Source: Amanita rubescens
Taxonomy: Eukaryota > Basidiomycota > Agaricomycetes > Agaricales > Amanitaceae
Assembly (NCBI GenBank): GCA_015039365.1
Contig: WION01000206.1
Span: 1 to 64,000 of the forward strand
DNA: 64,000 nucleotides
Direction of reading: 5' to 3'
Shown: piece by piece, positions 2,450 to 52,042 of the stretch
Position numbering within the stretch: the stretch's first letter is position 1
How the letters are laid out: each line of letters starts with the position of its first letter
Position numbers and translations under genes: made by a program
The notes under the pieces: model-generated
The model's database searches: none
Told to the model about the DNA's origin: nothing
The model's input: only the letters and a program-made list of their open reading frames with translations

Positions 2450-4593
2450 ATGTCGTTCTCATTCAGTTGGCCTCACTTTTCAGACCAGTTCCATCATGAT
2501 GCCATTCAGATGCTCAATAACGCCCTTAACAAGGGAAGCAAACCCCCAGTTATCGCGGACAAGATTGAGGTAGTCGAGCTGCACATGGGCACTCAGGTAT
2601 GCACATGATTTCTGTCCAATACCAACCCGGTCTTGAATTCACCAGCCGCCCGAGTTGGAAATCAGAGATATCGGTGACCTTGCAGTGGACCACTTCCGTG
2701 GAATATTCCGTTTGACTTACGCTGGAGATGCTCACCTAGTGCTCAAGACTAAAGTTCAGGTACATTTTTCCTGCTCTCGTGCTATCTGGCCTCATGCGTA
2801 CTTTAGGCTAATCCACTCAATCATAAACAACCAGATATTCATCTTATGACCGGATCGCGTGGAATTCTCGCCGCAAAGCAGCCTCTGGTTGTTCCAATGC
2901 TGCTCCGCCTTTCACATTTCCGGTTGAGCTCATATGTTGTCCTTGTTGTTTCGAAGCAGAAAGGGATTACACTTGTATTCAAGACGGATCCACTCCAGAA
3001 CGTCGACATCAACAGCACCTTTGACTCCATCGGCGTCATACAAAAATTTATACAACGCGAAATTGAAGGCCAACTACGGCAAATGTTTCGCGAAGATCTT
3101 CCCGGATCATCCATCGTCTAAGTCAGCAGTGGGTCAGTCCAAAGTCGAAGCACCCTACTTGACGAAACGTCCTCCTTTATCAATGAGGCAACCGCAGGAC
3201 GCTGCATCTATGCCCGACTTATCGCATCGCTCCGGAATGTCGAACCTGAGTGTGGCGGCAGGCTCAGAGGCCTGAATCGGTTGGGGTACCGCGGCCACGG
3301 TCCATATCAGGAATGTCCTCCAGAAGTGCAAACAACCGAACGCCCAAGCCCGAGTTTTCCGCGGTATCCACCAGCAAGGCCAGCCCAACCACCGCCCAGC
3401 TAGACCCTTTTTCCGATATTGAAAACTATGATCCCACTTATGGCCTACGACCTGAAGGGCTCCCCATCAAGAGTGGCTTTCGGCACTTTAGCAGTTTGTT
3501 CACGCCAAATAATGGTCTTGCCGGACTTCAGGAGGAACCATCAGATGCGGATGCAGACGATGACGACGAGGTGACTTCGTTTGATATGGTCGATTGGATG
3601 ACACGGCGCCCGAGATGAGTCCGCCACCGAGCGTGGAGGAAGATCGAGAGACGGAATACGAGACTACTCCCGCTGTCGGCGGCGGAACAATTACGCGGCC
3701 GCGGATCATACATGCGCAGTCCAGGTCATCCCCGCCTTCGTTATCACCACAAGCATCCAGCTTGGGGCCTTTGAGTGCGGGCCCATCTATGACCTCGCGG
3801 CACTCGAGTCCCCTCTACAACCCGTATTTCTCCGAAGCACCATATTCAGCACCGCCTTTCCGCTCTAGCCATAATGATCCAGCTCACGACGAGCTTACAA
3901 GTCAAGTACCACCAGGCCCATTCTCGACGACATCTGAAGAAGTTTCTGTTTCTTCCCAATCCCGTTCTCGCCGACTGTCTGTTTCATCCATGACTTCTCA
4001 AGCTCCTTATACTTTCTCACCAGGGACATCCCCACCTAGCGAGTTTCCTTCTGCCACTTTATCAACTTCTCCTCCCAACAACCCCAAAATTGTCTTGCGC
4101 CCTTCACTTATGACTAATAGCATTCGTCATCTATCCACTCTCAGCCATTCAAATCATACTCTCTCCCCTTACACCCGGTCTCTTGCCCACTTTACGGTTC
4201 GCAGGCGTTCCTCCACGTCCGTTGACGACTTCGCTCTCTTCGGAACGACAGCCGGTAAAGGCGAAACGGAAGCGGACATATCGATTAGGCGGTACCAACA
4301 ACATGCAGCAGGCACAAAAAGATGGAAGGCTACCCGGGCCAACAACCACAACCGACCATGACGTGCCCACAACTCGTCCGTCATCACCGCCACCTCCCTC
4401 TGAATTTGACGCTTCGGACATGGACCTTTATTTCCGTTCTCACGACGACTCGGCACCTTCGAACCGCCAGACACCATCTGCTGTCCATCGTTTACGCCAG
4501 CGACACCATCTTCTGTTTTTACCCCGCCACGTACTCCTAGAAGCTAGCCGTTTATTCATAGAGGACTGTTGTACACGTATTCATTCTATCTAA
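2450..4593 (+). CDS. MDM34: Mdm34, ERMES complex subunit (reading frame interrupted)
   Basis: Exons 2450-2596, 2646-2759 and from 2807 encode a clear Mdm34 N-terminal SMP lipid-transfer domain. It starts [14 protein letters not shown], continues with [32 protein letters not shown] motifs, and ends in [17 protein letters not shown] and [15 protein letters not shown]. Mdm34 is the mitochondrial outer-membrane part of the ER-mitochondria encounter structure and works with Mmm1, Mdm10 and Mdm12. From about 3107 the conserved reading changes frame several times (near 3107, 3135, 3260, 3592 and 4200), although family motifs persist: [73 protein letters not shown]. No splice sites explain the changes. 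Either the assembly has single-base indels or this copy is a young pseudogene. The last exon end is approximate. Confidence 0.85.
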
Positions 4594-4719
4594 ATTACCC
4601 CCCTCCTCATCGTCTCGTATACTATTATACCAATATCGTACACTATATTGCATTGGGTTAGAAAGGAGTTCATCTATTTGTACAAATCCAATCAAAGCGT
4701 TAATCGAGTCCAACCCAGT

Positions 4720-7700
4720 TTACATGTTGAGCTTCATATCAGGCATAGCTGAAGGCATCAATGCGGGTGAAGAAGTACTAGCAGTGACTTCAAACTCATC
4801 GACTAAAAAACGTTCGTTACTCAGCGCATGACGAAAGAGCTACACAAAACGAAGAACAACGTACCATGCATACTTGGCAATCTACTCGTATTCAACCTCG
4901 TAGCCGGAGCCTGACGCAACTGCCTAAAATCATTAGCAACATACGTCTTGGTCAAACCTGTCGCAGCCGGAGACCTCAAAATTGCCGTTGGAGGTGAAAT
5001 CACTACGCCAAGCAGATCGGGGGTTTTGACACCCTTTGGCGTGGATGGCGTAGCTGCTCCGCCCTCCTCCTTCGTTTCGCTTTCCTGCTCTGCACCCCCA
5101 CGGTGATGGTGGTGGTGGTGGTGCCGTTTCAACAAATCTTCCACCTCTGCAAGAGACATTGAAAGTGTTTCGGGCAGCACGATCAGAGGAGGCACCTTGT
5201 CCGCTTCCTCTGACAAGTCTTTGACAATCATCTTCTCTCGAACGGTGGCCAATAACTTGGACTGTGGCTCGTGTGATGGGTTTGCTTGATTTAACAACAG
5301 AGCGCTTTCTATCGCGTAGCATAGCTGTGAGAAGGCTTTAGGTGCCAGGCCGTATAATAGAGTAGCTCGATCTTCATCGTCAACGCCTTTTTGATCCTCC
5401 TTGGTAAGCCATTCGAGTATCGCCAACACTTCCCCTGCTAACGTTGCATCTATGCTTGAATGTAGATCCGCCAGGGACGACAAGAAGCGGGCCAACTCAA
5501 ACCTCAAAGGATCCGAAGTATAGGACGGGGACGTCTGCTCTTTCAACATGGTGAGGATCTTCTGCATCGCATCAGAGAGATAGAGTCCCTCCAGTTGCAC
5601 CACCCTTAGGTATTCAAGCAACACGGATCGTTTCAGTCCTTCCCCGAACACGCCTACATTCTCCGCCAAAACTTTGACAATGTTCATCAATGGTTGACAA
5701 GTCACGTTGGCATCTAACAACGCCCCTAAACATTGCGTCAACGTCCTTGATAGATCATCTGTGGACGCGATTGCATCGATGCACCAAGCAGCTACGTCCG
5801 ACCGAGGCGTTATCAACTCGTGTAGCACACAAAGTGCCAGATAAACCTCGTGTTGCAAGACGATCCGTTGATCAGTCGACGACGACGACAAGTGCCCCGT
5901 TAGACGCTCCAATATCGTCAACGCATGCTTCAATTCTTCCGCCAGCAACCATTCTCCTATCCCAATCGTTCCCTGGTCCAACTTGATCAAACGTTTTAAG
6001 AGATGAACACGGTTCTCGACATCGAGAAGACGAGTGAATTCCTTGAGCTCCATCAACACGGTTGGTAGTACGAGAGTCACCCAATGAGATGGTTCTTCCG
6101 TCTCTGTTTCCGGGAGAGGCAGAAGAAATTCTATCATAGCATGAATTTGCAAGACATGATGAACTGGGTCCCTTCCACTGCTCCTCTCAGCATGCTTCAG
6201 CAGCGTCCCTAGAATAACTTCCGCGCCGAGCTTGTCTGGCTCAGCCGTAACCTCCGGCTCCGACAACGCACGCAAGAATTCTATGCAAGCTTGTCTAGCC
6301 TCTTGTGCAGCCACACACGCCGTATTACTTTGCGAATATTGCGAGTCCGCCATACCCGCACAAGCAAACACGTCGGCAATCCAAATTGTCGCCGTCCCCA
6401 GAGACCTAACATTAAGAGGAAACGCTACCGTCAACTTTCCCAACACCCGCAACAAGTCCTCGGAAGTTCGAATAACTGTTCCGTTAAAGCCTGGTTCACA
6501 GGCCCCGGATAGAGGTAACTGAGAAACGAGCGTTGAGATCTTGCGAAATCCCCATCACTATTTCGATTAGCCTGATATTCAAGTCTTGTTTTTGTTCAGA
6601 CCAGAACAAGTCGACTGCGTGCCATTCCCCTTCATCTTCCGCGTCTAGACTGTTCAGTAGGATGACAAGTGATACCCGCAGAGTCCTCAGTCGTCGTAGA
6701 GAAAGGGGATTATCGCTCTTGAACGCAATCTCTTCCAACGCGGCGGACAGTCCGTCTTCTGCTACCAGAGCCACCTTGCGCAGCGTGAGACGCTCTCCAT
6801 CCGCAATAAATGACAATGGAGGCTTCAGGGATAATATAGTTGATACCAGGTCATCGTGCAAAATTGAATGAGGTTCTTGCGCGAGGTTGACTAGGACACG
6901 CTCCGCCAGGGTACCGGAGTTCCGCGGAATCGCATTGTCTGATGTGATCCATCCCAACGGCGCGTGAGTTGTCGCAACAATAAAAGATGGTTAACGATCT
7001 AGTCATCATCGTCAGCGCCAGTGATTCAAAAAAAAAAAAAAAAAACTTACCTCTCGATAACCACTCACGTTTTGCCACAAGTGCAAAATAGCAAGAGACT
7101 GTTCCCGACACGCATCATGCCCTATGCTATCTGACCACGCCCAAACCGCCAAAACGCTGGAAACGCCCACAAAGGCTCTCACGAATGCTATAAATTCATC
7201 ATGCCTGACGGAACCTGTTTTCTCACTGAGAAGTAAGGGTGGCGTAATTTGGGAGGGTGGTACGGCAATTTCGGCAAGTTTTGCCGGAAGTACGTCGTGT
7301 ATGGTCATCGACTCGAGCCAGATGCCAAGAGATTGTTCACCAGTCCCAATATCTTTTAACAATCGGGCGGAATCGTAAAAGTTGCCGTGAGAATTGGAGA
7401 TGGCGTCTTCAAACAGTTCCCAACCACGTATTCGAGATGTCAAGCGGTTAATGGCATATTGAGTGTCCCTGTCAGTTCTGGGACCGTCCCTGGCTTCCCC
7501 CAATAGTTCGAGGAAGGCTGGGTCATTGAAGCGTCGTGCAATGTCTACATTGGCCGCAGCATCAAGTAGCCGATCGGTGTTTGCCTCGTCCAACACGTTT
7601 GCATCAAATACCATGTCAAGATCTAGGCTTTGCTGCTGTACCAGTTAGTTTATCCTCGCATAATAGTTTCTAATCTTACAGACCAAGAGGATCCTGGCCA

Positions 7701-8661: not shown

Positions 8662-8734
8662 GACGAAAGGTGTTTACGTGATAAATATTTAATTCTGCCT
8701 GCCCTATTTCTACCATCCGAAATACCTCCCTGCG

Positions 8735-9274
8735 TCATAATAGTGCTGCGGCCATTTCTTTGACATCACTGATGACCGCCATGAATCTCTGATACCCATC
8801 CTCTGTTGTAATGTCCGTATCCCACCTCTCTACTGGGACTGTGTCAGTATTGGAAGATGGCGCAATGTAGCTGGGAGTTAAACGGCTGGTTGCCTTGTCC
8901 AGGTGATAAAATGCAAGCCTTTGTCCCATGGCACTGACGCCATGAAGCCTATGTGTCGAGATGTCCTCGTAAAGGGCAAGAAATCTGGCCCTCATCTCCG
9001 CGTCTGTGTCGACTCTGGTAGAAATGAGGTCGATGTGGAGAGGGGATTTAATTTCAAGGAAGAAGACGGGCAGATCGTTCACTTCGACGACGTAGGTAAA
9101 GACGGAGTCCACCACACCAAGATCGGGAAAAGGGTACCGTGGCTCGACGTCAAAGTGATGTTCGGGGAAGCACACTGTATGGAGGATCTGGTAGAACACC
9201 CCGTAGTACTTGTTGTCGATGGGGGTGTCGTTGGGGATGCGAGCGAATTGGTCCAGCATGTATTGAGGCAACAT
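8735..9274 (-). CDS. Small protein with a possible PD-(D/E)XK nuclease-like core
   Basis: The frame of about 180 residues starts at the first ATG (MLPQYMLDQFARIPNDTPIDNKYYG). It has no intron inside the supported part. Its centre reads VVDSVFTYVVE, then VFFLEIKSPL: an Asp followed by E-x-K on adjacent beta strands, the pattern of the PD-(D/E)XK nuclease fold. I recognise similar sequences (NDTPxDNKYYG, FFLEVKPP, then a conserved Trp-Asp near the C-terminus) as a large, uncharacterised family in agaricomycetes. An upstream exon cannot be excluded, because the same frame stays open without an ATG to about 9370. It is tandem with the Virilizer gene, 73 bp apart. Nuclease activity is inferred from the motif only. 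Confidence 0.55.
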   Translation of the reverse strand: MLPQYMLDQFARIPNDTPIDNKYYGVFYQILHTVCFPEHHFDVEPRYPFPDLGVVDSVFTYVVEVNDLPVFFLEIKSPLHIDLISTRVDTDAEMRARFLALYEDISTHRLHGVSAMGQRLAFYHLDKATSRLTPSYIAPSSNTDTVPVERWDTDITTEDGYQRFMAVISDVKEMAAALL

Positions 9275-22992: not shown

Positions 22993-25900
22993 CTAGACAA
23001 CTGAGTACATACCATCAATGTCGGTTACCTGCCTATAGAGTAATGCCACAAGATGTTCATCACCAAACTTCAAGACTTGGAGGACATCAGGAGTAATGTC
23101 AATCTGCAGCTTCTGGTGCACATAGCCTTTTTGCTTGTATTGATCCAAGGCTTCTGTAACTGATGGAAGAAATGGTTTATTGATCCAAAAGGATAGCTTG
23201 GCAATGATAATCATTGCTTGAAGGTTTAAGCATAAATACTGTAAATGAAAAGGAATAATTTACAAACTAAGACTTGGCAATCAACAGCCTTGAAGTTCCA
23301 ACTGCATCAATTGTGTATGCCAAAAAAAAAGAACAAAATACCCTGATTTTAAAATTGCTTTGTTTGTCTCCAAACAGGGCAAAAAGTTCATGCTAGTTAC
23401 TATCAGATAGAGTAAAACATGCAATGTATCATCATACTTACCCACTAGCATTGAAATCTATATGAAGATCGATACCGTATGAACTGGCACCACTCACCTG
23501 GGAATCAAGGAAAGTGATATAAGTGAGAAGAATAATCACATAGGTAGAGGGGGTGAGCTAAAATTCAAAAATCTTACAATCTATTATCATGTAAAGGGAA
23601 GACATGGAAAAGATATGACAACATGCTCACTTTCTGATATACATAGAATGTAATATATATATCAAACATTTTTAAGTTGAGGGATGCTAAGAATGTAGGT
23701 CAGAAATGTACACTGTCACTCACATGCTTTTGAAAATTGAGGAAAAGATGTGATGAGACTGCCATTTGGAACAATATGCAATGTCACTCACAAGCTGTTG
23801 GTCATAAGAAAAGATGTGATGAAACTACCTGTCACAAAAATGAGTGATGTCACTTACTTGCTGTTGGTCATAGCAAAGAAGTACATTTCAACACAAAATT
23901 GAATGTGTAATACTTACTCGCTGTTGGTGATAGGAAAAGATGTGATGTGACTGTCTTTCACAAAAATGAGCAATATCACTCACTCCCTGTTGGCCATAGG
24001 AAAAGTGTGATGACTTTCACAAAAATGAGCAATATCACTCACTCGCTGTTGGTCATATGGAAAGATGTGATGAGAAGGCCTTCACAAAAAGGTACAATAT
24101 TGCTCACTCCCTGTTGGTCATACAAAAAGATGTGATGACTGCTAGGAGACTCCCCTGTGCAATCTCACTCACAAGCTGTTTGTCATACATAGGAAAAGAT
24201 GTGATAACTCAACTGCCTTACACAAAAATGTGCAATGCCACTCACAGCCTGTTGGTGATAGGGAAAGAAGTGATAAGGCTGACTGTCTTTCACAGGATGT
24301 GCATTGAATTTCACTCACTCTCTGTTGGTCATAGGAAAGGATGTGGTGTTTGAACTGCCTGCCATCATGAAAATATGCAATGTCACTCACAACCTGTTGG
24401 TCATATGGAAAGATGTGATGAGACTGCCATTCACAAAAATGTGCAACTGTCACTCACAGCCTGTTGTTCATGCAAAAGATGCAATAAGACCATTGCCTTT
24501 CAAAAAAATGCGCAATGTCACACACCTGCTGTGAAAAGATGTGATGAGGCTGCCTTTGACAAAAATGCACTATTCACTCACTCCCTGTTGATCAGAGGAA
24601 GAGATGTGATGAGGCTGTCTTTCACAAAAATGTGCAATGTCACTCACTGCCTGTTGGTCATAGGAAAAGAAGTGACAAAACTGCTGCCTTTTACAACAAT
24701 GTAGAATGTCATGATGACTCACCCCCTGTTGGTCAGAGGAAAAGATGTGATGAGACTGCCTTTCACAAAAGTTTGCAATGTCACTTACTTGCTGTTGCTC
24801 AGAGGAAAAGATGTGATGAGGCTACCTTTCACAAAAATGTGCAAAGTGCTACCCACAAGCTATTAGTGATAGGAAAAGATGTGATGAGACTGCCTTTCAT
24901 AAACATGTGCAGTCTCACTCACAAACTGTTGGTCATAGAAAAGGGTGTGATGAGACTGCTTTTCACAAAAACTTTGTGCAATGTCACTCACTGGCTGTTG
25001 GTCATAAGAAAACATGTGATGAGATTGCCTTTCACAAAAATGTTCAATGTCACTCACTTGCTGTTGGTCATAGGAAAAGAAGTGATGAAACTACCTTTCA
25101 CAAAAATGGCAATGTCACTCACAAGCTGTTGGTCATAGGAAAAGAAGTGATGAGACTGCCTTCTGCCTTTCACAAAATGTGCAATGTCACTCACTCCCTG
25201 TTGGTCATAAGAAAACATGTGATGAGATTGCCTTTCACAAAAATGTTCAATGTCACTCACAAGCTGTTGATCATAGGAAAAGTAGTGATGAGACTGTCAT
25301 TCACAAAATTGGGCATGTCACTCACTCCCTGTTGGTCATAAGAAAACATGTGATGAGATTGCCTTTCACAAAAATGTTCAATGTCACTCACAAGCTGTTG
25401 ATCATAGGAAAAGAAGTGATGAGACTGTCATTCACAAAATTGGGCATGTCACTCACTCCCTGTTGGTCATAGGAAAAGATGTGATGAAACTGGCTGTCAC
25501 AAAAATTGCAATGTCACTCACTTCCTGTTGGTCATAGAAAGATGTGTGGATGAGACTGCCTTCTGCCTTTCACAAAATGTGCAATGTCACTCACTTGCTG
25601 TTGGTCATAGGAAAAGATGAGACTGCCTTCCATAAAATGTGAAATGTGAGGCACTGACTTGCTGTTGGTCATAAGATTAAGATGTGATGACACTGGCTTT
25701 GACAAAAATGTGCAATGTTACTCACAGCCTGTTGGTCATAAGAGACTTGCTATTACAAAAAGGGGGAACATCACCCACAAGCTGTTGGTCATAGGAAAAG
25801 ATGTGATGAGACTGCCTTTCACAAAAATGTGCAATGTTGCTCACTTCCTGTTGGTTGTAATAGTAAGACATGTGATGCAACTGGCTATTGCAAAATCAGA

Positions 25901-28900
25901 CAATGTCACCCACAAGCTGTTAGTCATAGGAAAAGATGTGATGAGACTGCCTTTCACAAAATATGCAATGTCACTCACTGGCTGTTGGTCATTAAAAGAT
26001 GTGATGAGACTATCTTTCACAAAATTGGGCAATGTCACTCACTTCCTGTTGGTTATAGGAAAAGATGTGATCTGACTGGCTATCACAAAAAGATGCAACT
26101 TTGTCACCCACAACCTATTGGTCATAGGAAAAGATGTTATCTGACTGCCTTTCACAAAAATTTGCAATGTCACCCACAAGCTGTTGGTCATGGGAAAAGA
26201 AGTGATGAGACTGCCTTTCACAAAAAAGGGTAATATCACTCACTCCCTGTTAGTCACAGATAAAGATGTCATGAAACTGCCTTTCAACACAAATGTGTGC
26301 AATACAACTCACAGGCTGTTGGTCATAGGAAAAGAGATGGCCTTTCACAAAAATGTGTATTGACACTCACTGACTGTTAGTCATAAGAAAAGATGTGATG
26401 AGACTGTGCATGCCTTTCACAAACATAGGTAATGTCACTCACAAGCTGTTGATCACAAGAAAAGATGTGATGAGACCACCTTTCACAGAATTGTGCAATA
26501 TCACTGACATACTGTTGGTTATAGGAAATGATGTGGTGAGACTGCCTTTCACAAAAATGTCCAATGGCACTCACTCCCTGTTGGTCATAAGAATGGGTGT
26601 GATGAGATTGCCTGTAACAAAATGCGCCATGTCACTCACTCCCTGCCATTGGTCATAAGAAAACATTTGATGAGAGTCCCATTCACAACAATATGCAATG
26701 TTACTCACTCCCTGTTCATCATAGGAAAAGATGTGATGAGAGTGCCTTTCACAAAAATGTGCAATGTCACTCACTCCCTGATTATCATAGGAAAAGATGT
26801 GATGGGAAGACTGGCTTTCACAAAACTTTGTGATGTCACTCACATGCTGTTGGTCATAGGAAAAGATGTCACTGTGAGACTGTCTTTCACAAAAATGTGC
26901 AATGTCACCCACAACCTGTTGGTCATAGGAAACATGTGATAAAACTGCCTTTAACTAAAATGTGCAATGCCACTCACAAACTGTTGGTCATAGGGAAAGA
27001 TGTGGTGAGACTGCTTTTCACAAAAATGTGTAATGTCCACCCACTCCCTGTCAGTCATAGGAAAAGATGTGATAGACTGCTTTAAAAATGTGCAAGATCA
27101 CTGACATTCTGTTGGTCATAGGAAAAGATGTGATAAGACTATATTTCACCAAAATGTCCAATGTTGCTCACAAACTGTTGGTCACAGGAAAGGATGTGAT
27201 GAGACTGCCTTCCCTAAAAATCTGCAATGTCACTCACAAGCTGTTGGTCACAGGAAAAGATGTGATGAGACTGCCTCATTCAAAAAAAGTGTGCAACTTG
27301 AATATCACTCACTCTCTGTTGGTCATAGAAAATATGTAATGAAACTGCGTTCACAAAAATATGGAATGTAATTTACCAACTTTCAGTTGTAGGGAAAGGT
27401 GTGATGAGACTGCCTTTCAAAAAATGCAGTGTCACTCACAATCTGTGGGTCATAGGAAAAGGTGTGATGAGACTGCCTTTCACAAAAATGTGTACTGTCA
27501 CTCACAATCTGTTGTCACAGGACAAGATGTGATGAGACTACCTTTCACAAAAAGGTGCAATGTCTCTCACTTGCTGTTGGTTATAGGAAAAGAAGTGATG
27601 AGACTGCCTTTCACAAAAATGTGCAGTATCACTCACTCCAGCCTGTTGGTCATAGGTGTGATGAGAATTCCTTTCACAAAATGTGCATTGTCACTCACTC
27701 TAGGCTGTTGGTTATAGGAAAAGATGTGATGAGACTGCCTTTCTCAAGAATGTGCAATGTCACTCGCTGTCTGCTGGTCATAAGAAAATATGTGCTCAGA
27801 CTACCTTCCACAAAAATGTGCAATGTCTCTCACTGGCTGTTTGTCATAAGAAAGGATGTGATGAGACTACCTTTCTCAAGAATGTGCAATGTCACTCACA
27901 CTCTGTAGGTCCTAAGAAAAGATGTGCTCAGACTACCTTCCACCAAAATGTGCAATGTCTCTCACTCGCTGTTTGTCATAAGAAAGGATGTGATGAGACT
28001 ACCTTTGATACAAATGTACAATGTCACTCACTTCCTGTTGGACATTAAGGCAAGATATGATGAGAATGCCTTTCACAACATGTGCAATCACTCACAAGCT
28101 GTTGGTTATAAGACTGCCTTTCACAAATATGTGCAATGTCACTCACTCCCTTTTGGTCATAGGAAAATATGTAATGAGACTGCCTTTTGATGTCACTCAC
28201 CCCCTGTTGATCATAGGACAAGATGAGATGATACTGCATTCCACAAAAATGTCCAATGTCACTCACTCCCTGTTGGTCAGAGGAAAACATGTGTGAGATT
28301 GCCTTTCACCCAAATCTTTAATTTCACTTACACGCTGTCAGTCATGGGGAAAAATCCATAAGACAGCTTTTGAGACAAATTGTGATGTTACTCACAAACT
28401 ATTGGCCACAAGCAAACAATTGATAAGGTCACCTTCTGAATGGCTCAACCAACATGACATGCTGATAACCTCCTATGTTTATAGGAAACCATGTGATGTC
28501 ACTGCTTTTCACAAAGGCTTCAATATCACTTACAATCTGTAGAATACATAATGTGTCCAAATTGCCTTGCAGCAGAGTGGCCACTGGTATCACTCACTTC
28601 CTTTTGAAATAAAATTAGTACATTGCATCAGGAATCAGGAATCAATGCCACTGACTCTCTTTCGCCATAGCATTTCATATGATGGATTAACACCTCACAA
28701 AAAGTATCACATACATTCTGTTGGTTTTGCAGTTCCATGTGAAGAGGCTTTGAAAAGGAGAAATATTTACTGTCTGTTGTTTTGGGACAAGATGCAATCT
28801 TTATAAGCAGACATGAAGGAAGTGTCACTTACCTCCTGTTATTACACAAATGACATTTTGTGAGGCTCTCCTTTGGATAAAAGTATGTTACAGACTTTCT

Positions 28901-30780
28901 GTTGTTCATTGAATTATATCTGATGAACTGCACAAACATCAATGTTACTTACTTTCTTTAACTGGGTCAGATGTGGTGTGAGATACTGTTGTATTACTCA
29001 CTCCCTGTCCATGAGAAACTGCATTGACAAGCCTGCTTGTGACCATAGATTTACTCACTTTCTGTTGGTCATATGATGCACCATGGGATAATTTACCAAA
29101 AATCAAATTGAGTGATGTCACCCACTGCCTGTGGATCATGAGACAAGACCACTGATCACAAAAGGAAGCATTACTCACAAACTGTTGTCATGAGACAATA
29201 TATCAGATCTATGTTAGTTCACCCTTACCCACTGTTATTGATATCATTAAATCCTGCCACCAAACATATGGTGACAACTAACCTGTGTTTCACTCAGTTG
29301 TTTATTGGCCACCTGAAGCATGACTAATCTTGTTTTAATGTGAAGGAATTTGAGTGTTACTCACCTCCTGATGAATGTTTTGCAAAGTATTACCATTCCA
29401 TATGAAGGCCACCTACCTTCCTGTCCACCTATCACCATTTAATTTTCCTATGCTGATGAGCAGCTTGACAAAAATGCATACCCAGAAATGTGGAAATTTT
29501 GTAAATACTATGACAGTAACATCATTCCATGGCAAAGTTGGTTGGAATAAGGCCTGGTACAGAACATGTCTGAACAATGTCAAGGTTAGTAAGTGACATT
29601 TTTGAGTGTGACCCTCACTGAAGTGCAGATTTAACACAAAGGTCCAGATTATTCATCTGTGTTGAAACAAACAGCTCATGCATGATGTCATCATCTATTG
29701 CATCAGCAGTTTTCTGAGTTAATTCAGCACAATTCTTCTCTGGTAAATCCATGTCTATGAAACAACATCACTCCCATTTTCAGGAAGAAATCCTCATCAT
29801 TCTCACCTTCCAATTGCACATATGCCCTAGGAGGGTATTTGGCATTCAAAAATTTAGGAAGATAAACTTTCTGAAAAGTGATATCAGCATTTTCCCTGGC
29901 TCTCTCCCACTTATCTTCTTCCTTTGCATCAGTCAAGTTGATAAATTCACTGGCTATTTGACCATCAAACTTAGTGAATATAACCACCAAAGGAACTGTA
30001 AAGGAAATATTGACTAGTCAGTTCACTGTAGATTAGTACTTAAGTAGATTTTGGCCAATGGAAATGTGGTAAAACAATTCCTCTAACATGAACAAGATGA
30101 GATATAAATTCATTAAGACCAACCTCTGCCTGTCCCTTTATTGAAAAATTCAAGTTCTGCCTGTAAAATGGGACGAGGGCTGTCCATGGGTATGCAGTAC
30201 CTACAGGGATCTACATATGTCAACCAGTCATGTAAAGGAATAAATCAGATACCAAATTGCATGCAACTGATTTTTCAGCTCAGTTTCTGCAGACTTCTTC
30301 TCAATGAAATTCCAAGCAACCTCCAATTCATCAGCAGAACCAGATTCAAATCCCTGAGAGTCATGGAAAATAAAGTTACTCTCAGGGTATGTAATTTGAT
30401 GTTCAATATCATGTAGGCCTCTCTGTTATTAATGCATGTAAGTGGGCACATCCATACATTATGTATCATTAAATGCACCTCAATTGATGGCATCAGATGT
30501 GTTGCAGATGCTTCCAGTTCTTTGCCTACAGGAAACTCAATATGCAGAAGAAGCATAATGTTCAGCCTGACTTACCATCCTCATCATATATTGTGGGCTT
30601 TGTTCCCTTTGCTACACCACAAATCTTCTCAAGGATGGTTGTCTTGCCTGCATTAGCCCTCCCTATGACAAGGATACGAAAATGTGGGCATAGGTATTGT
30701 TCCCTGAGTATTTTAACATGTGTCTCATCTGTACCTGATGTATGTATACCAGTCAGATAATGGGAATACCAAGACATCAT
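22993..30780 (-). CDS. HSR1-like GTPase with an internal array of single-codon exons
   Basis: Conventional exons are 30576-30780, 30479-30525, 30253-30422, 30124-30200, 29772-29995, 29619-29734, 29482-29569 and 29417-29428. They encode a G domain: Walker A/G1 GRANAGKT, G3 HDSQGFESG, G4 TKFD. I recognise this as a common agaricomycete family (start MSWYSxYLxGIH, LCPHFRILVIGRANAGKTTI). Exon 29482-29569 ends KFPHFW in phase 0 and 29417-29428 adds four codons. Then follow about 89 three-nucleotide exons down to 23578, described separately. Downstream are a candidate exon 23442-23497, a TTT microexon at 23264-23266 and a last exon 23238-22993, which reads AKLSFWINKPFLPSVTEALDQY and KFGDEHLVALLYR and stops at 22993. 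The phase between 23442 and 23264 is unresolved: one extra nucleotide is needed. The function of the family is unknown. Confidence 0.7.
23578..24791 (-). repeat. Microexon array, block 5 (3' end)
   Basis: Triplets in transcription order: 24789 CAA; 24723 GGG; 24648 GCA; 24582 GGA; 24526 CAG; 24458 GCT; 24391 GTT; 24319 AGA; 24246 GCT; 24173 CTT; 24108 GGA; 24043 CGA; 23984 GGA; 23918 CGA; 23858 CAA; 23792 CTT; 23724 CAT; 23631 AAA; 23578 ATT. The last units (23724, 23631, 23578) have diverged intron sequence but keep donors GTGAGT, GTGAGC and GTAAGA and acceptors ending AG. Just beyond, at 23498, AG again abuts GTGAGT directly. That is either a zero-length site or the start of a 56-nt exon. 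Confidence 0.6.
24857..25916 (-). repeat. Microexon array, block 4 (most homogeneous, recently duplicated)
   Basis: Triplets in transcription order: 25914 CTT; 25845 GAA; 25779 CTT; 25726 GCT; 25659 CAA; 25595 CAA; 25522 GAA; 25457 GGA; 25392 CTT; 25326 GGA; 25261 CTT; 25195 GGA; 25123 CTT; 25058 CAA; 24992 CCA; 24923 TTT; 24857 CTT. Between about 25195 and 25475 a two-unit block of about 131 bp carrying GGA and CTT is repeated almost perfectly, so new codons have been added here by recent tandem duplication. Confidence 0.65.
25979..27174 (-). repeat. Microexon array, block 3
   Basis: Triplets in transcription order: 27172 TTT; 27106 AAT; 27045 GGA; 26978 TTT; 26913 GTT; 26844 CAT; 26775 GGA; 26709 GGA; 26640 GGA; 26575 GGA; 26509 TAT; 26443 CTT; 26371 TCA; 26313 CCT; 26244 GGA; 26178 CTT; 26112 GTT; 26043 GAA; 25979 CCA. 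The intron-like part reads, in pieces, GTGAGTGACATTG, CACATTTTTGTGAAAGGCAG, TCTCATCACATC and TTTTCCTATGACCAACAG. Occasional donors are GTGGGT or GTCAGT. Acceptor variants such as CTAACAG, CTGACAG and ATAATCAG all keep the AG. Confidence 0.65.
27238..28334 (-). repeat. Microexon array, block 2
   Basis: Triplets in transcription order: 28332 CGT; 28267 GGA; 28201 GGG; 28147 GGA; 28096 CTT; 28032 GAA; 27966 CGA; 27900 AGT; 27834 CCA; 27768 ACA (or CGA at 27764, because the donor here reads GCGAGT); 27699 CCTAGA (six nt, two codons); 27637 GCTGGA (six nt, two codons); 27571 CAA; 27506 ATT; 27440 ATT; 27377 TTG; 27313 AGA; 27238 CTT. Most donors are GTGAGT and most acceptors end CCAACAG, about nine nt after a TATGAC that can serve as branch site. 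Unit spacing is about 51-75 nt. The two longer exons are still multiples of three. Confidence 0.65.
28396..29428 (-). repeat. Microexon array, block 1 (5', most diverged units)
   Basis: Reading the minus strand, each unit is acceptor AG, three nucleotides, then a donor. After the 12-nt exon 29417-29428 the triplets (lowest plus coordinate and minus-strand codon) are: 29365 GAG; 29229 TGG; 29179 TTT; 29126 GCA; 29059 AAA; 29002 GGA; 28953 AAA; 28896 AAA; 28833 GAG; 28771 ACA; 28715 AAT; 28656 AGA; 28598 GAA; 28534 ATT; 28470 GAG; 28396 TTT. Donors vary here (GTGAGT, GTAAGT, GTATGT, GTCTGT, GTAAAT, GTCAGT, GTTATC) and spacing ranges from 49 to about 74 nt, so this block looks oldest. At 29283 an acceptor AG directly abuts a donor GTTAGT with no exon. 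Confidence 0.65.
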
Positions 30781-50803: not shown

Positions 50804-52042
50804 TAACGACCGGGAAAGTTAGAATCCCAATCCCCGTACCTCCTCTCTCCAGATCGATAGTCATTGCGGTCACCAAAAGAACTGGGATTGTTGTATTCCT
50901 GGAACTCGGAACGATAATTCTCGTCGGGATAACCTAATCCAGGCCAATCATCGTCCCGAGCCGACTGAGGAAAGTGCGCCATCCGCGGTGAATAGTACGA
51001 GCTGCGCGGGATAGGATAAGCCTCCCTTTGGTACCTCGTAGCACCCCGGGCCTCCCTTGCACCAAATTCATCCGCCGAAGTCCAGTCCCTCCTATTATTA
51101 CGAGTCGCCGTTGGATACCGATGTGCGTAGCAAGTTGTACAATTGCACAAGACGGGGACCCCCCTATCCCGGTCAAAAGTGTTGGCGGTAGCATAAGCAG
51201 TCTGACGTATCCTCATATCAACATACGGGTCTTCGCTGCGATAAAAGCGATATTCTCGCGAGAACGAATGATGATGACGGGGCCGAGTCACCGGACTGGC
51301 GCTACCAGAAGAAGAACCAGGCCATTGCGTTCGGGCCCATTGATATCGATGATCTCTGGAATAATCACCGCCGAATCCGCCATATCGGCCATGGCTGGGA
51401 GAGGGTAACCCAAATGTAAACGGCATTGCATTCATTGCGGGAGTAGGCGGCCCGTGTCGATATAATCCAAGGTCTCTAGGCGTCGCGGGGCCGAGAGCGT
51501 GTGGATGGGACTGATTGGAGGGGTAGGAAAAATCTCGCAGCCTTTGTTGTGAATCAATGGATTCCCAGGGTCCTCCTATACCTTGCCGTAGAGGAGATGC
51601 GCCAAAATCTCCTAACTCGCTGACGGTGTGTACACGTCTGCCGGGGCTTTCGTGGATGCTGCGGCTGCGAGCAGGTGATGGTGGAAATCGTGGGTCGCGC
51701 GTGCCATTCAAGTCACCTATACCTTGCCATGCGCCAGAATCTCCTAACTCGCCGACGGTGTGTACACGTCTGCCAGGGCTTTCGTGGATGCTGCGGCTGC
51801 GAGCAGGTGATGGTGGAAAACGTGTGTCGCGCGTCCCATTCAAGTCAAGACCGTCAAAAGCAGAAGTTAAAGATAGAGGCTCCTGTTCATGGTCGCGATG
51901 TGGTCTAAGCGAAGAAGACCTGTGGAAGTCTGTGGGTCTAGAGAATTTTTTATGAAAATGAGTGACGTGCACAAAAATAGAAATTGTATACGTTGTACCT
52001 GTTCGCTTGATCGTAGTCGGATCGATAGTACGGTGCTGACAT
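50623..52042 (-). CDS. Unrecognised Arg/Ser/Tyr-rich low-complexity protein
   Basis: Exon 1 (51999-52042, MSAPYYRSDYDQANR) joins across a 61-nt intron to a single long exon (50623-51937), 452 residues in all. It has a duplicated stretch (see 51603-51847), HHHSFSREYRFYRSEDPYVD, a short Cys cluster VLCNCTTCYAHRYP and a C-terminus of repeated Asp/Ser/Tyr (DSDDSWHN, YSDGEYSGFGGD). No domain is recognised. The acidic-aromatic, RG/RY-rich make-up suggests an intrinsically disordered, possibly RNA-associated protein; that is inference. Confidence 0.65.
51603..51847 (-). repeat. Internal tandem duplication in a coding exon
   Basis: Two copies of about 120 bp, at about 51603-51727 and 51729-51847, encode GTRDxRFPPSPARSRSIHES, then PGRRVHTVxELGD, with few differences, in frame with each other. 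Confidence 0.8.

Follow-up and report, generated by a model that had tools for sequence, protein, structure and literature searches.

The window analysed here is a 64,000-nt stretch of contig WION01000206.1 from the Amanita rubescens (Agaricales, Basidiomycota) assembly GCA_015039365.1. On its minus strand, from 29367 to 23578, lie 89 tandem units, each composed of an intron followed by 3 nt (87 units) or 6 nt (two units, CCTAGA at 27704 and GCTGGA at 27642). An earlier note on this DNA had placed about 89 such units, two of them with six nucleotides instead of three, on the same strand within 23578-29428; both the count and the range are reproduced. The array belongs to a gene whose features are as follows.

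30821-30791, minus strand: first exon, a guess.
30734-30576, 30525-30479, 30422-30253, 30200-30124, 29995-29807 and 29754-29619, minus strand: predicted G-domain exons, with the frame open through all joins.
29569-29482, minus strand: last ordinary exon before the array, ending ...FTKFPHFW in phase 0; annotated relatives break off here, nearby or earlier.
29428-29417, minus strand: 12-nt exon VDRK (VDRE or VGRE in several paralogues, VGRD in the homologous protein P0007, VDRA in P0001).
29367-29365, minus strand: first single-codon exon, GAG (E), from the unit chain.
29312-29283, minus strand: 30-nt exon VANKQLSETQ (ANKQLSEAQ in P0007).
29231-28267, minus strand: 17 single-codon exons, W F A K G K K E T N R E I H F R G, a conserved motif with the consensus WFEQGKKETDREIKYDG.
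28266-23578, minus strand: variable tail of 71 further units, 69 of 3 nt and two of 6 nt (27704-27699 and 27642-27637).
23740-28110, no strand assigned: tandem repeat reported by TRF, 66-nt period, 66 copies, 73% matches, part of the array.
23499-23496, minus strand: AG joined directly to GT, a zero-length exon after the last codon-exon, found by eye.
23392-23342, minus strand: predicted downstream exon HELFALFGDKQSNFKIR, resembling PELFSVFGEHSTFFSAT of the homologous protein P0048 by eye.
23288-23264, minus strand: predicted 25-nt downstream exon AVDCQVLV (ATACQVLA in P0048, by eye).
23216-23013, minus strand: predicted C-terminal exon MIIIAKLSFWINKP..., with 150 scored genome matches.

The exon layout of the earlier note holds for the array itself and is extended at the 5′ end by the 12-nt and 30-nt exons; downstream, where it named an exon at 22993-23238, we place the last three exons listed. 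The counterpart of the 30-nt exon in another genomic stretch (L016) has 33 nt, an in-frame addition. The variable tail ends with the codons AAA (23633) and ATT (23580), a 'K.I' ending that by eye recurs in 15 of 34 chains, at their end or close to it. The AG|GT site that follows is a possible recursive splice point; by eye it occurs in five of the nine paralogues displayed (L013, L016, L034, L043 and L051) and is absent from L009, L017, L045 and L046.

Units were called as a dynamic-programming chain along the minus strand. This gave 92 candidates between 29367 and 23444, three of which were removed: 29312, which is read as the start of the 30-nt exon, 23497 and 23444. Two earlier chain settings, since replaced, had yielded shorter chains of 54 and 44 units. 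The 87 introns between units 2 and 89 range from 46 to 90 nt and 58 of them fall within 60-66 nt, the length class to which the earlier note had assigned most. Among the 3-nt units, GTGAGT donors are found in 45/68 core and 7/19 edge units and CAG acceptors in 64/68 core and 13/19 edge units, shares that arise partly by construction because the sites were chosen on splice score. The first 16 units of the window have diverged (mean identity 0.55, versus 0.74 in the core). All 88 units after unit 1 start in phase 0, and the 5,790 nt of the array include 273 coding nucleotides. Adding eight exons before the array and three after it, of which the first exon and a few joins are predictions, gives a model of 102 exons that translates without a stop into 497 residues.

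The assembly appears to hold haplotype copies, and many genome matches come in pairs with equal scores. On contig C139, an apparent second haplotype of the locus, the last 17 units are found again; DNA identity is 98.8% across 3.2 kb (BLAST), and the residue is the same in 16 of these 17 codons, the one change being Q to R. A 68-residue C-terminal query from the window has a 100% identical match on the same contig.

The earlier note had called this a G-protein gene, and the predicted protein agrees with that description. Read by eye, it contains GRANAGKT, DSQG and TKFD, which we take to be the G1, G3 and G4 motifs of a TRAFAC GTPase of the MMR_HSR1 type. The Pfam model PF01926 (MMR_HSR1) scores 18.9 bits on it, below the Pfam cut-off of 21.9, and the same domain is precomputed for several relatives. 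When the predicted protein was scanned with Pfam from its start through the last array residue, only weak P-loop-type matches came up, and neither NACHT nor ankyrin. The structural model of the relative P0048 (mean pLDDT 80) shows a G domain and a helical C-terminal part and, between these two confident parts, residues 295-357 at pLDDT below 50; by eye it is this low-confidence segment that aligns with the array. The solved folds nearest to the P0048 model, which was used here in place of the window's own protein, are the immunity-related GTPases Irga6, Irgb10 and GM4951 and other TRAFAC GTPases, all at weak similarity. Tails in the A. rubescens arrays are rich in L, Q, R, G and E. A coiled coil was considered for these tails and rejected, as no heptad-like hydrophobic period was found in 27 of them. 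The simplest reading is that the array encodes a likely disordered, variable and length-tolerant linker between two domains.

Arrays of this type are found repeatedly across the genome, in a large family of G-domain genes. The unit pattern CAGNNNGTGAGTGACATTGC has 1,311 exact genome matches and its reversed control none. A 75-residue query taken from the two exons that immediately precede the array gave at least 150 scored matches (283 candidates) and the exon after the array at least 150 (213 candidates); both counts are lower bounds, include haplotype copies, and comprise matches not all of which were checked for an array. Unit chains were present in 29 of the 30 stretches fetched besides the window (L010 has none), a proportion that does not describe a random sample because the stretches were picked at pattern matches or between family exons. 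Complete-looking chains have 30 to 91 units, the 91-unit chain being L011 joined to the second-listed chain of L012, one array split by a stretch border. The deposited annotation seems to miss these arrays. An array peptide is found in none of seven annotated A. rubescens family proteins (P0002, P0004, P0018, P0020, P0036, P0046 and P0087); P0087 passes from FPHYW straight into the C-terminal part, and the other six stop short of the array or close to it. Since 0/7 of these proteins hold an array peptide, such families have probably been missed in other genomes too.

Three features of the array sequences bear on whether the triplets are codons. The 3-nt units of the window contain no stop (0/87); shuffles contain 2.84 on average and 2.9% of them also none, and the stop count of the window alone is weak evidence for codons. 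With the near-copies L037, L040 and L042 removed, the combined arrays hold 2 stops in 1,438 triplets, against a mean of 80 and a minimum of 60 in 2,000 shuffles. T is scarce as first base where it would create a stop, in 2 of 766 NAA/NGA triplets versus 149 of 506 NTT/NAT/NCT triplets (Fisher p 2.8e-63). Genome-wide, in one exact context, TAA/TGA occurs once, the six triplets AAA/CAA/GAA/AGA/CGA/GGA 714 times and TAT/TGT 26 times. Laxer settings with near-copies kept give 3 stops in 1,607 triplets, and a stop also lies inside four 6-nt calls, three in L017 and one in L042.

The spacing between introns is also constrained. A chain model that left every exon length from 1 to 12 nt unpenalised still called 3 nt for 1,593 of the 1,845 exons found in 31 stretches. 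Genome-wide, the distance from GACCAACAG to GTGAGTGAC is 3 nt in 1,210 cases; it is shorter (0-2 nt) in 17 and longer (4-12 nt) in 18, and reversed controls gave 0 throughout. By their listed spans, the 18 longer spacings comprise 11 of 6 or 9 nt and seven of 4 nt; 17 of the 24 spacings other than 3, 6 or 9 nt lie on a single contig, C749.

The motif WFEQGKKETDREIKYDG, written one residue per exon, was found at a threshold of at least 7/17 residues in 22 arrays from 31 stretches (19 without near-copies); the stretches that lack a match have a missing 5′ end, variants or merged exons, or no array. The window's motif agrees with the consensus at 11/17 residues and with any single paralogue at 6 to 12/17. 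Between paralogues, codon identity across the motif region is 0.855, versus 0.749 for introns and 0.381 for position-shuffled codons; as the excess of codons over introns is moderate, the motif is the weakest of the three codon tests.

Intron-free relatives supply evidence of a different kind. The search for protein homologues gave 1,438, many of them Amanita proteins, of which 120 were listed; three of 24 records examined read through a window-type array peptide. These are P0001 (386 aa, 1,446-nt contig, ~58 array residues), P0007 (311 aa, 1,903-nt contig, ~41 array residues, the end of the array part being uncertain) and P0016 (378 aa, 1,494-nt contig, ~56 array residues), all from JGI contigs and 66-81% identical to the window's protein. 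Because the contigs are too short for the introns, they would be RNA-derived; they are products of related genes or species, not of the window's gene. P0007 reads VGRD-E-MANKQLSEAQ-WFEHGKKDTDKQIVYDG followed by ~23 more array-like residues, which is the genomic exon order. P0001 reads VDRA-VTNEQLSETK-WFEKGKKESDREIEYDG and 41 further residues, then VRFHF...PTSC. The single E codon is present in P0007 and not in P0001, which a difference of gene or isoform may explain. Aligned with 51 codons of the L050 array, P0016 shows 28 identities and a score of 150, against a mean of 18 (sd 8.6, maximum 53) in 2,000 shuffles. It then continues VCDIAQFSE; of all L050 introns the closest to this is the one that follows the matching codon, with the reading VCEMPQFSE. 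The end of P0001 (IVRFHF..PTSC) is likewise close to the read-through of the last intron in several A. rubescens paralogues. Since P0001 and P0016 end in apparent retained introns, splicing does seem to remain incomplete in places, and part of the transcripts may be unproductive. Other relatives (P0032, P0048, P0050 and P0063) run on into the C-terminal part. A database search with the array peptide alone returned one candidate and no match. The earlier proposal that the array is laid out for single-codon exons thus agrees with the stop counts, the spacing, the motif and the read-through proteins.

Two readings would dispense with codon-by-codon splicing. The array is a tandem repeat, and it could be a minisatellite within one long intron, its splice-like motifs a by-product and the mRNA joining 29569-29482 directly to 23392-23342; the frame indeed stays open with the whole array skipped, giving 392 residues. 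An untranslated repeat would, however, have no cause to avoid TAA and TGA exactly between AG and GT, nor to hold a 3-nt spacing, and the intron-free proteins of relatives carry such codons in order. We therefore consider a minisatellite very improbable. Still harder to credit is translation of the unspliced array into a tandem repeat of 22 residues. A 63-nt intron of consensus sequence does lack in-frame stops and reads VSDIAHFCERQSHHIFSYDQQ (its middle by eye), but only 179 of 1,581 introns are open in this way (26/87 in the window) and intron lengths fall in all three frames (365, 353 and 863). On these respective grounds we reject both.

We propose that the locus is a G-domain gene whose 89 intron-plus-codon units are predicted to be spliced singly into a variable linker of ~91 residues between the G domain and the C-terminal part, and we hold this to be very probably correct. 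For the window's gene itself we infer expression and complete splicing. Short introns would be recognised across the intron, which would make the size of the exon of little consequence. As each exon is one or two codons in phase 0, the gain, loss or skipping of a unit would keep the frame, with unequal recombination or exon skipping as possible routes. Because the units would be frame-neutral, the linker could vary in length and in sequence codon by codon. Such an arrangement might serve the fast diversification of a multi-copy, receptor-like GTPase. That the variation serves non-self recognition is a guess, drawn from the size of the family and from a parallel with NLR proteins of truffles.

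How the array arose is a separate question, on which the relation between introns and codons is informative. L017 contains 41 identical copies of one 62-nt intron, and between successive copies stand CTA (13 times), CAA (12), CGA (7), CTT (2), CA (2) and CATT (1), with three longer gaps. In L009 one 53-nt intron occurs in 13 copies behind six different codons. Codons are nevertheless not wholly independent of introns: the codon is the same in 26% of 736 unit pairs whose flanking introns are both at least 98% identical, a figure close to a single-array result because the near-identical pairs are mostly from L017, versus 6.6% of pairs with introns below 70% identity. Neighbouring equal codons number 130 against 104 (z 3.0), an excess too weak to decide between unit duplication and insertion. 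Between L037 and L039 the codon has changed in 3 of 53 aligned units (4 of 54 by another pairing) and the introns by 1.1%. A large excess of codon over intron change in near-identical array pairs was set aside, as homogenised units cannot be paired by position.

Three accounts of origin were weighed; the first two are compatible with single-codon splicing as proposed above. The most conservative account of identical introns around different codons is that neutral concerted evolution (gene conversion and unequal crossing-over) homogenises the introns while selection at the protein level maintains or promotes codon differences. It draws on known processes, and the divergence of the first 16 units of the window relative to the core fits it. 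Yet 41 flawless 62-nt copies, with codons that vary chiefly at the middle base, would demand very short conversion tracts or strong selection per codon, and the tail peptides lack a regular pattern that would require it; we give this account somewhat less than an even chance. The exact intron copies in L017 and L009 also recall introner-like elements, known in fungi (PMC4457414), which might have invaded a normal coding stretch so that the codons are old and the introns young. Random insertion would leave many exons of 6, 9 and 12 nt, whereas spacings of 6 or 9 nt number 11 and those of 3 nt 1,210. By eye, moreover, 24 of 26 matches of one exact context lie between the family's upstream and downstream exons and the other two within 4 kb; with 26/26 in or near family exons, spread to other genes is not seen in that context. 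In L009 codons have also been duplicated jointly with their introns, as blocks (by eye), and an invasion by introner-like elements seems unlikely to us. A further and equally doubtful suggestion is that introns and codons evolve as two populations: one intron sequence would be copied or homogenised unchanged along an array whose triplets differ, the array acting as a codon-by-codon diversification engine for a repertoire of receptor-like GTPases. In one bold form of it, a new intron copy would arrive with a 3-bp target duplication and so add exactly one in-frame codon. Because the same intron flanks different codons, a comparison of strains offers a direct test of how intron arrays originate.

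The earlier note took 3-nt exons to be known only as isolated exons and an array of this size to be undescribed. Neither statement survives comparison with the NACHT-ANK (nank) genes of Tuber melanosporum, for which 'dozens of 3 bp mini-exons' are reported in three papers that cite Iotti et al. 2012 (PMC9815663, PMC4986451, PMC3689799); arrays of codon-exons are, on this literature, of a known kind. As reported there, the truffle genes resemble the present ones in forming a fungal multi-copy family with a nucleotide-binding domain and dozens of 3-bp exons per gene, and in allowing in-frame change of a region beside that domain. They differ in phylum and protein, being Ascomycota and NACHT-ANK where the Amanita arrays are Basidiomycota with a G domain, and on the Amanita side up to ~90 successive codon-exons come after a conserved 17-codon motif. 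Alternative splicing is reported there for the truffle mini-exons, whereas the Amanita arrays are known from genome and protein sequences.

Microexons of animals and plants, such as a 3-bp exon in Drosophila homothorax (PMC7392893) and a single-nucleotide exon in Arabidopsis (PMC4674806), are likewise spliced at one codon or less, but as reported they are single exons, not long tandem arrays. Fungal introner-like elements share with the Amanita introns the presence of many near-identical copies in one genome; those elements multiply as invasive introns, whereas the Amanita copies are packed 3 nt apart in one family. Searches of open-licence PMC papers turned up none that describes arrays of this type in Amanita or elsewhere in the Basidiomycota, and none that reports the gene family, its size, arrays on this scale, a conserved motif distributed across single-codon exons, or identical introns around codons that differ.

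Long runs of single-codon exons probe the lower limit of exon size far more extensively than isolated microexons do. They also suggest that recognition by intron definition may be enough to deliver dozens of correct joins in succession. If the truffle arrays arose separately, which the differences in phylum and gene family suggest, the same device would have evolved twice in fungi for nucleotide-binding proteins.

Some arrays depart from the common pattern. Of the 17 spacings of 0-2 nt in the genome, 14 lie in the array at C749:2072-3957 (minus strand), which is perhaps decayed or out of frame. L017 looks broken, with spacers of 2 and 4 nt. In L043, TAA and TTG replace the two lysine codons at motif positions 6-7, possibly marking a pseudogene. 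L037 (minus strand, 3024 to 5880) and L042 (3393 to 5840) contain L039-like arrays interrupted by ~2.5-2.8 kb without units, possibly a mobile element, and in L009 a foreign-looking stretch at ~8700-9198 (by eye) lies between the array of the C8 copy and its C-terminal exon. The third base of the triplets is almost never C and rarely G (A 836, T 522, G 78 and C 2 among the 1,438), despite a GC content of ~0.41 across the window's array. Elsewhere in the window, 51597-51847 holds about two copies of a 132-nt repeat with 94% matches, unrelated to the array.
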